NCBI RefSeq assembly: GCF_040675875.1
Contig: NZ_JBEGII010000001.1
Coordinates: forward strand, 1,178,001 to 1,242,000
From: Microbacterium sp. LWO12-1.2
GTDB lineage: Bacteria; Actinomycetota; Actinomycetes; Actinomycetales; Microbacteriaceae
DNA length: 64,000 nucleotides
Reading direction: 5' to 3'
In this document: piece by piece, positions 41,107 through 42,548 of the stretch
How the letters are laid out: every line of letters begins with the position of its first letter
Position numbering within the stretch: position 1 is the first letter of the stretch
Translations under genes and position numbers: made by a program
The notes under the pieces: model-generated
What the model was told of the DNA's origin: nothing
Seen by the model: the letters and a program-made list of their open reading frames with translations, nothing else
Databases searched by the model: none

Positions 41107-41138
41107 AGAAGAAGGCCCCCTCTCGGGAGCCTTCTTCT
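41107..41138 (-). terminator. original tRNA-Leu terminator, now detached
   Basis: On the minus strand AGAAGAAGGC pairs with GCCTTCTTCT, extended inward by a G-T pair and CCC/GGG around a GAGA loop, with a T-rich 3' side. It directly abuts the left copy of the 16-bp repeat that matches the tRNA-Leu 3' end, so it was the tRNA terminator before the IS landed. Confidence 0.75.
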
Positions 41139-41154
41139 TCTGTGCGCGGAGGGG
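41139..41154. repeat. left 16-bp direct repeat flanking the IS
   Basis: TCTGTGCGCGGAGGGG. It equals the last 12 nt of tRNA-Leu(GAG) plus 4 flanking bases and abuts the left IS end. It is the target duplication made on insertion. Confidence 0.88.
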
Positions 41155-41245
41155 TGTCTGGTTTCAGGACATCGTGAACGGGTGTCTCGGGACATCGTGA
41201 ACAGTGCAGCTGGTGGCGCGGGCATGTCTCAGGACATCGTGAACG

Positions 41246-42411
41246 GTGGCCAAGTACGAGATCCTCATCACAGCCGTGACCGTTCAACACCTCTCCTACG
41301 GTGAGGTCGCCGCCCGGTACGGGGTCTCGAAAACGCTGGTCCATAAGCTTCATCACCGGTGGCTCGTCGAGGGAGATGCGGCGTTCGAGCCCCTCTCACG
41401 CCGGCCGCGGACGACGCCGAATCGGACTGCGGTCCCGACCCGTGAACGCGTGATCGCTCTGCGGGATGAGCTCATCGGCAACGGAGTGGATGCCGGGGCA
41501 GACACGATCGCAGAGCACCTCGCCCGCGAGGGCACTCTTCTCTCACGGACCACGATCTGGCGCATCCTGACCGCAGGAGGAAAGGTCACCCCACAACCCC
41601 AGAAGCGTCCCCGATCGTCCTGGCACCGGTTCACCGCGGACCGACCGAACGAACTCTGGCAATCCGACTTCACCCACATCACCCTCGCCGACGGCACCGA
41701 TAGTGAAGTCATCGGCTGGATCGATGACCACTCTCGCTACGTGCTCCATCTCAGCGCTCACCGCCGCGTCACCGGCCGCACCGTGACCGACACCTTCAGC
41801 GAAACAGCAGCCCAGCACGGGTATCCCACCGCGACTCTCACGGACAACGGCATGGTCTACACCACCCGCCTCGCCCGCGGAGGACGCGGCAGAGGCGACG
41901 GCGCCGGCAACGGATTCGAGACTCTCCTCGCCACCCTCGGCATCACCCAGAAGAACGGCAAACCCTTCAAACCCACCACCCAAGGCAAGATCGAACGCTT
42001 CTGGCAGACCCTGAAGAAATACACCGACACGCACCCCGCAGCCACCCTGACCGAGCTGCAGGCCGCCCTCGACACGTTCCGCGACTACTACAACAACATC
42101 CGCCCGCACCGCGGCATCAACCGAAAGACCCCCACATTCGCCTACCAACTGATCCCGAAAGCCAGCCCACACCACCCGAAGACCCGAACACCTGGCGCGT
42201 CCGCTACGACACCATCGACAACGACGGCAAGATCACCCTCCGCCACCACGGAAGACTCCTCCACCTCGGCATCGGACGCGCTCACACCCGCACCGAGATC
42301 ATCTGCCTCGTCCACAACGACGACGCCACGATCATCACCCTCAGCACCGGCGAACTCCTCGCCGAATTCACCCTCGACCCCACCAAGAACTACCAACGCA
42401 AAAACGGCTGA
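41246..42411 (+). pseudogene. IS481-family transposase, frameshifted
   Basis: GTG start inside the left end. N-terminal helix-turn-helix (LSYGEVAARYGVSKTLVHKLHHR); integrase core with DDE residues in LWQSDFTHITL, TLTDNGMVY and GKIERFWQTLKKY. Up to about 42170 the frame is intact. Beyond that the family C-terminus (EDPNTWRVRYDTIDNDGKITL ... TLDPTKNYQRKNG, stop 42409-42411) continues in the -1 frame, so one base has been lost near 42165-42175. Without that shift the frame reads on as Ser/Thr/Pro-rich nonsense to 42484, past the IS end. There is no A-rich slippery site. Confidence 0.85.
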
Positions 42412-42439
42412 ACCCCCGGAAACCGGGGGTTCAGCCGTT
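42403..42439 (+). terminator. hairpin at transposase end
   Basis: A perfect 17-bp stem with AAA loop (42403-42419 with 42423-42439) spanning the transposase stop and running into the right inverted repeat. It would stop transcripts entering or leaving the IS. Confidence 0.7.
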
Positions 42440-42461
42440 CACGATGTCCAGAGACATCACA

Positions 42462-42477
42462 TCTGTGCGCGGAGGGG
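42462..42477. repeat. right 16-bp direct repeat flanking the IS
   Basis: Identical to 41139-41154. Bases 42466-42477 are the 3' end of the intact tRNA-Leu. Confidence 0.88.
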
Positions 42478-42548
42478 GACTTGAACCCCCACGCCCTTAC
42501 GGGCACTACGACCTCAACGTAGCGCGTCTACCATTCCGCCACCCGCGC
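42466..42548 (-). tRNA. tRNA-Leu (GAG)
   Basis: An 83-nt class II cloverleaf on the minus strand: acceptor GCGCGGG/TCCGCGC, anticodon stem CTACG/CGTAG with loop TTGAGGT (anticodon GAG), long variable arm TGCCCGTAAGGGCGT, T arm GGGGG-TTCAAGT-CCCCC, discriminator A. CCA is not encoded. The IS begins 4 bp past its 3' end. Confidence 0.95.

Follow-up and report, generated by a model that had tools for sequence, protein, structure and literature searches.

The window analysed here, a 64,000-nucleotide stretch of the genome of Microbacterium sp. LWO12-1.2, contains an IS481-like insertion sequence at the 3' end of a tRNA-Leu(GAG) gene, which raises the question of whether the element arrived at this position by accident or belongs to a lineage that inserts at such sites. 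The element spans positions 41155..42461 (1,307 bp, + strand, identified by its sequence, domain matches and repeats), starts with TGT and ends with ACA. Its outer 28 nt on each side are imperfect inverted repeats (left, 41155..41182, + strand, ends compared by eye; right, 42434..42461, − strand, from inverted-repeat comparison). The 13-letter motif GGACATCGTGAAC begins 12 nt inside either end, with one copy on the right and three direct copies on the left (outermost, 41167..41179; second, 41190..41202; third, 41232..41244; all on the + strand), and close relatives are arranged likewise. Repeat comparison identified TCTGTGCGCGGAGGGG on both sides of the element, at 41139-41154 and 42462-42477 (16/16 identical, 1323 nt from start to start), where the right copy takes in tRNA nt 62-73 together with the next 4 nt downstream; by our arithmetic, about 0.0003 perfect 16-base repeats are expected by chance in a 1.55-kb region. 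The tRNA gene (42465..42548, − strand, locus L001) was predicted by ARAGORN and confirmed by Rfam, and its discriminator A73 is at 42466 by our reading. Its T-loop sequence (42478..42486, − strand; GACTTGAAC on the + strand), which is common to insertion sites, lies directly beside the duplication. The left copy abuts a terminator-like hairpin (41107..41138, − strand), and deletion of the element with one 16-bp copy leaves the tRNA, 4 nt and the hairpin in succession. An IS481-type element with TGT/ACA ends and a 16-bp duplication at the 3' end of tRNA-Leu(GAG), as described in the initial annotation, is thereby confirmed base by base. In its own genome the element has a single copy, and none of the 7 other IS481-like elements of that genome (29-36% identity) has a tRNA within the stretches examined around them.

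The open reading frame and domain matches indicate one transposase gene (41246..42411, + strand) whose HTH and DDE (rve) domains share a frame and which matches PF00665 and PF13683. The conserved C-terminal part (42121-42411, with the stop ending at 42411) is in another frame than the rest; the window copy looks frameshifted near the C-terminus and, because of this shift, is probably inactive now. Residues D141, D200 and E250, which we take to be the DDE catalytic triad of the family, are invariant in a 44-row alignment. NF033577 (NCBIfam IS481) was the top-scoring model for both P0036 and P0001, with 219.6 and 220.3 bits, respectively, just short of the curated cutoff of 224. An AlphaFold2 model of P0036, an intact 388-aa relative from Microbacterium mangrovi, built from the 44-row alignment, was poor (mean pLDDT 65, pTM 0.37) and suggests no more than N-terminal helical parts, a core resembling RNase H and a beta domain at the C-terminus. 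Sequence comparison with solved structures gave weak matches only, mostly to retroviral-type integrases and also to Ty3 and the IS5376 transposase.

To see the site without the element, we looked for the tRNA together with its neighbour in 38 genomes and obtained 29 loci from 29 genomes with an ARAGORN tRNA-Leu(GAG), of which one is the window copy, one (L234) is occupied by a relative and 27 are unoccupied. A hairpin starts 0-20 nt past the tRNA in 25 of the 27 unoccupied sites; the same test found no hairpin in this interval at L237 and L251. Given that a tRNA followed by a hairpin is the usual arrangement of empty sites, the element came between the two. The genomes with unoccupied sites are other species, not a sister strain, and at that distance they bear out the earlier proposals that an IS-free site should read tRNA and then hairpin, and that the two are rejoined when the element and one repeat are removed from the sequence. 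Folding of the native hairpin (41107-41138, minus strand), which the unoccupied sites also mark as the original one of this tRNA, gave a stem of 14 pairs, with −29.1 kcal/mol over the stretch and z = −3.15; it has no T run after the stem and was absent from a simple terminator scan. The element has a terminator-like hairpin of its own just inside its right end (42403..42439, − strand), whose 17-bp perfect stem precedes a T run when read the way the tRNA is transcribed (z = −6.78, with −50.4 kcal/mol over the stretch); it starts 25-27 nt after the tRNA end and was not picked up by the simple scan either. This element-borne hairpin is a feature absent from the initial annotation, according to which the insertion had parted the tRNA from its terminator: the native hairpin is indeed displaced, but a terminator-like signal still follows the tRNA, since the element carries its own. 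Both hairpins of the window may act as terminators, judging from their stems, the T run after the second and the comparison with relatives.

Relatives were drawn from 18 loci on genome contigs, one plasmid and four overlapping taxonomic draws, namely the genus (22 of 295 genomes, E up to 1e-60), family (42 of 349), order (45 of 347) and phylum (22 of 396; E up to 1e-40 for the last three). Entry into the clade required at least 39.5% identity. The script returned 162 entries (111 classed as tRNA, 17 as T-arm, 10 as array, 9 as contig end and 15 as other), and 157 distinct elements remained after removal of 5 double entries: L083, L099 and a second L207 entry, all further views of elements already counted; a repeated entry of L198; and the front piece of L173, which forms one interrupted element with the piece on the tRNA side. 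L135 and L097 were moved from the T-arm to the tRNA-gene class, these being longer elements whose tRNA lies beyond the 520-nt limit. The exclusion of L180 and of four elements of genome G1337 and the classes of L191, L130, L145 and the array members were chosen by hand. Uncounted rows are three of G615, G421:C1, G634:C1, G400:C22, G466, G374:1259855, G590, G837:C72, G730, G776, two of the three of G939, the second of G935 and G681:1243338.

In 112 of the 157 distinct elements of the clade, the right end directly adjoins a tRNA gene (within 520 nt for 110, with L135 and L097 in addition), and in 112 of these 112 sites the tRNA strand is opposite to that of the transposase. Another 15 are located at T-arm sequence in which neither ARAGORN nor Rfam predicts a tRNA gene (as a control, 5 of 5 loci with an ARAGORN tRNA gave one in Rfam as well), 9 are outer members of arrays with another element of the family to their right, and 7 are cut by a contig end; two of these 7, L012 and L014, may belong as left halves to the copies that L011 and L013 represent in the count. 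The remaining 14 are exceptions with no tRNA, T-arm, array neighbour or contig end at the right. By our reading, 7 of the 14 have lost their right end (L069, L071, L073, L119, L143, L160 and L201), and the right end of the other 7 lies beside other DNA (L009, L023, L120, L158, L161, L162 and L178). At L178 a tRNA-Ser-like duplicated end is still visible; at L009 the left repeat is tRNA-Ser-like and the right flank is unrelated DNA, the tRNA side having probably been lost after insertion. The comparison of further copies for tRNA-end targets and repeat length, put forward in the initial annotation, is thus strongly positive among relatives.

The targets comprise 27 anticodons (26, and Arg(CCG) at L097), most commonly Ala(GGC), Ala(CGC), Ser(GGA), Pro(GGG) and Ser(CGA). 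At L098, ARAGORN called a tRNA-Phe(AAA) whose end letters resemble tRNA-Tyr ends elsewhere, possibly a miscalled or altered tRNA. Near-identical copies often occupy several tRNAs of one genome (e.g., Tyr/Ser/Ala/Arg in G604, Ser/Tyr/Ala/Ala in G222 and Ala/Ser/Ser/Leu/Glu in G004), and the duplicated letters differ with the target; since the repeats differ with the tRNA within one genome, they are taken over from the target rather than carried by the element.

The precision of insertion was assessed with duplication finders that were set without any T-loop requirement. These reported a duplication for 100 entries (59 entries had none, and 3 double views were left out of the recount), and T-loop letters stand directly beside 88 of the 100, corresponding to 87 elements because L198 was entered twice; examples are GATTCGAAC, GATTTGAAC, GACTCGAAC and GACTTGAAC. 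The 87 T-loop-flanked duplications are of 15 bp (46), 16 bp (34), 14 bp (3), 17 bp (3) and 13 bp (1), 4 of them with 1-2 mismatches, and the cut position in tRNA numbering is nt 61/62. The 12 duplications without T-loop letters include 6 array members with the next element adjoining, 3 matches inside repeats or a gene (second L056, L117 and L038), and L145 (with the T-loop-like GAACTGAAC), L161 and L178. Base counts at 124 junctions were obtained via a search pattern in which positions 2 and 3 were free and positions 5 and 8 half free, and of the free positions, position 2 is A in 122 of 124 and position 3 is mixed; the unconstrained evidence for the T-loop is accordingly that of the duplication finders and not these counts. 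Three sites are informative about the signal. L141, on Arthrobacter sp. ERGS1:01 plasmid NZ_CP012477.1, is inserted inside a 3' fragment that is tRNA-like but not predicted as a tRNA, and has duplicated 15 bp of it; L130 and L145 have little in common with a tRNA beyond TCGAACCC or TGAACCC at the right distance. These three sites point, though not conclusively, to the T-loop letters as the signal in the DNA.

The duplication of 16 bp in the window, and of 13-17 bp in relatives with 15 commonest, lies at or just past the top of the range of 2-15 bp quoted for IS481 in the available text of PMC10045372. The view in the initial annotation that 16 bp is long for the family needs correcting, as about 15 bp is a known length class of IS481/IS1202 elements in the same text, and the 12 outgroup elements with a resolved duplication in our own data show 14-16 bp.

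We further compared the hairpins at the right ends of clade elements. A loose test found inward hairpins at 105 of 120 ends (L198 entered twice) and outward hairpins at 47, with 44.8 expected from simple shuffles; this test was too permissive, and a stricter one, whose result went in the same direction, was applied to 81 non-redundant ends. By the strict test, 56 of 81 clade right ends have a tRNA-facing terminator-like hairpin and 12 of 81 have an opposite-facing one, with 0.4 expected from shuffles (our segment-swap approximation of a dinucleotide shuffle); 25 of 81 have no inward hairpin, and none of 12 outgroup ends has a terminator-like hairpin. The inward hairpins of 56 of 81 ends suggest that many elements of the clade seem to replace the terminator that they displace.

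In 13 elements, the right end of another element of the family touches the left repeat or lies a few nt away. Two-element arrays were seen at L056, L103, L107, L115, L117, L020 and L207, mostly behind one tRNA and with a duplicated tRNA end between the elements, and the order element, repeat, element, tRNA at L107, L103, L056, L115 and L117 is that expected if arrays grow at the tRNA. On the other side, 101 tRNA-site elements had a left flank of 400 nt or more, and in none of these does a second tRNA occur within the up to 1.5 kb of that flank; splitting of tRNA operons may be avoided or lost.

The more distant hits, 28 in number and below 39.5% identity, all lack a tRNA on their right side; at least two, L072 and L117, are fragments of copies from the clade. 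For 12 of the 28 a duplication was resolved, 14-16 bp long and located at other sites. One distant hit, L124, has a tRNA about 330 bp to its left, a relation seen nowhere else. In a FastTree phylogeny, the run for which gave long-branch warnings, one group of 102 rows (local support 100) takes in all but one of the 76 rows with the label tRNA, along with 15 rows without a tRNA, 7 contig-end rows and 5 array rows. The remaining tRNA-labelled row is L197, of a sister lineage, whose duplication is at another target, short of the tRNA. The label tRNA requires 25 changes on the tree compared to a mean of 40.4 after shuffling, and 15 changes if array members are counted as tRNA and contig-end rows are omitted.

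We consider it highly probable, from these sequence comparisons, that the elements form a clade of IS481-like insertion sequences that transpose into tRNA 3' ends in a site- and orientation-specific manner. As the compared sites show, the target is cut between nt 61 and 62 and a second time at a distance of 13-17 nt (mostly 15-16), shortly beyond the discriminator; the transposase gene points at the tRNA, and many kinds of tRNA serve as targets. The duplicated 3' T-stem strand, acceptor strand and discriminator restore the tRNA end on the tRNA side. The signal would be the universal T-loop DNA GTTCRA (TYGAAC on the other strand), presumably read by the transposase itself, as the element is without any other gene. 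The T-loop lies outside the duplication, so that the tRNA-side copy alone would stay a target and arrays would therefore grow at the tRNA end, with older copies pushed outward. The element's hairpin could substitute for the native terminator, which would make the insertion harmless to the host. What speaks against this account are the 14 exceptions among the 157 elements, the 59 entries in which no duplication turned up, the sister lineage with its different repeat, the 25 label changes on the tree and the 25 of 81 right ends that lack an inward hairpin. With moderate confidence, we favour this reading in full, that is, one-gene DDE insertion sequences that form a widespread clade in Actinomycetota, have a transposase able to read universal T-loop DNA by itself, and combine base-exact, one-orientation insertion at tRNA 3' ends with restoration by 15-16 bp, often a replacement terminator, and harmless arrays.

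Several alternatives were weighed against this reading. That a single insertion happened to fall on a tRNA agrees with the one copy in the window's own genome, and this reading, refuted by the relatives at tRNA ends, has next to no probability. Integrase-type recombination, with the 16-bp repeats as attL/attR cores carried by the element, would fit tRNA 3' ends, which are classic integrase attachment sites, and the islands and phages of tyrosine integrases resemble our element in that the tRNA 3' end is rebuilt; unlike it, they enter by recombination and bring along an att copy of the tRNA end. The element contains no tyrosine or serine recombinase gene, its sole gene being a DDE (rve) transposase, which contradicts the integrase reading; its termini are TGT/ACA inverted repeats, and copies of one element at different tRNAs of a genome carry different flanking repeats, so we regard it as extremely improbable. 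Random insertion followed by survivorship, in which only copies at harmless tRNA ends persist, draws on the frequent loss of insertions in genes, and the 0 of 101 elements with a left-hand tRNA may reflect selection against split tRNA operons. Survivorship is nevertheless very unlikely given the base-exact junction, the single orientation in 112 of 112 sites and the near-identical copies at several tRNAs per genome; moreover, the 28 hits below 39.5% identity are under the same selection and none has a right-hand tRNA, and intergenic DNA should provide more harmless sites than tRNA ends.

A different question is whether the transposase finds the tRNA by itself. A host factor or RNA might select the target, for instance if a tRNA-processing enzyme, RNA polymerase or the tRNA recruits the transposase, as could be imagined for an element that has one gene only and that sits mostly at the end of tRNA genes; contact with bound XerC has been proposed for the dif-targeting ISAjo2 elements (in the available part of PMC10132070). 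Against such recruitment stand the 15 elements at T-arm sequences where ARAGORN and Rfam find no tRNA gene, and L130 and L145, which are tRNA-like in little but the T-loop letters. The T-arm fragments might, however, be remnants of once-whole tRNA genes, and these sites are therefore not decisive against a host factor, a possibility that we judge unlikely on balance.

Comparison to known systems, for which the cited papers were available in part, shows features shared with several groups. The clade resembles the IS481 family in its transposase with HTH and rve DDE domains, TGT/ACA ends, length of about 1.3 kb and single gene, and differs in its precise tRNA 3'-end target, fixed orientation and often built-in tRNA-facing hairpin. 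TGT/ACA ends are described as an IS481 feature shared with Tn7-like transposons (PMC11406308). The ISAjo2 group of the IS1202 family likewise has a single DDE gene, TGT ends and insertion at an exact distance from, and in one orientation to, a conserved sequence, but its target lies 5 bp from the XerC site, its duplication is 5 bp and its transposase has 441-457 aa (PMC10132070); in place of that group's dif-like target and 5-bp duplication, our clade has a T-arm target and duplications of mostly 15-16 bp. For IS1202 members with longer duplications or none, the authors found no conserved target, according to the part of the paper available (PMC10132070). Tn7-like transposons and the CAST types I-B2, I-D and V-K share a DDE enzyme, TGT/ACA ends and a tRNA attachment site with our element, whereas they choose the tRNA via TnsD/TniQ or a guide RNA and possess more genes, and CyCAST inserts 30-33 nt downstream of the tRNA and the window element inside it (PMC11406308, PMC10293859). 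Instead of the separate target-selector and regulator genes that mark Tn7-like elements, the window element has one gene in 1,307 bp. A Leifsonia IS481 element has a repeat given as NCTAGN (PMC2516522, available text), and the accessible parts of PMC9569102 and PMC11708052 describe no tRNA targeting. In titles and the starts of abstracts of the PMC literature, a body of text that does not extend to subscription papers or ISfinder, we found no description of IS481 elements aimed at tRNA ends.

What appeared to be a one-off insertion thus very probably represents a clade aimed at tRNA 3' ends with exact base and orientation. Simple insertion sequences are usually regarded as loose in target choice; in this clade, a single protein seems to pick an identical position in numerous tRNA genes with a fixed orientation, while the duplication mends the damage and the displaced terminator often seems to be replaced. 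The clade connects the site-specific IS481/IS1202 elements with Tn7-like transposons, in which special targeting proteins give access to tRNA genes. Should T-loop reading need nothing but the transposase, the enzyme would amount to a compact integrase that works without a guide on a site found dozens of times per bacterial genome, which would explain how elements build up without death of the host; it would also be a minimal, protein-only answer to the safe-harbour problem, for which Tn7-like elements employ additional subunits. As regards mobile carriers, no relative was found in viral contigs; a phage collection gave 2 records with 27-29% identity, and a plasmid collection gave 7 records, one of them (L141) above 50% identity.

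The specificity itself can change, as is indicated by the sister lineage (40-48% identity), which uses a different repeat. Its four copies in genome G1337 (L197, L208, L212 and L213) have an unchanged architecture, and each is inserted at the same position of the interspersed repeat CGCTSAGCGATCNNNNGCGCACCGAAAT, for which 13 matches with up to 2 mismatches were found, some of them at the four copies, compared to 0 for the reversed control. On this comparison of sequences, the sister lineage is a case of changed target and kept precision, and it provides a natural experiment on how target choice changes. Another change of target is possible for L158, L161 and L162 (family code f4), which form a subgroup of the tree without tRNA targets, and for L023 of Bifidobacterium pseudolongum, a clade member whose right end is not at a tRNA gene.
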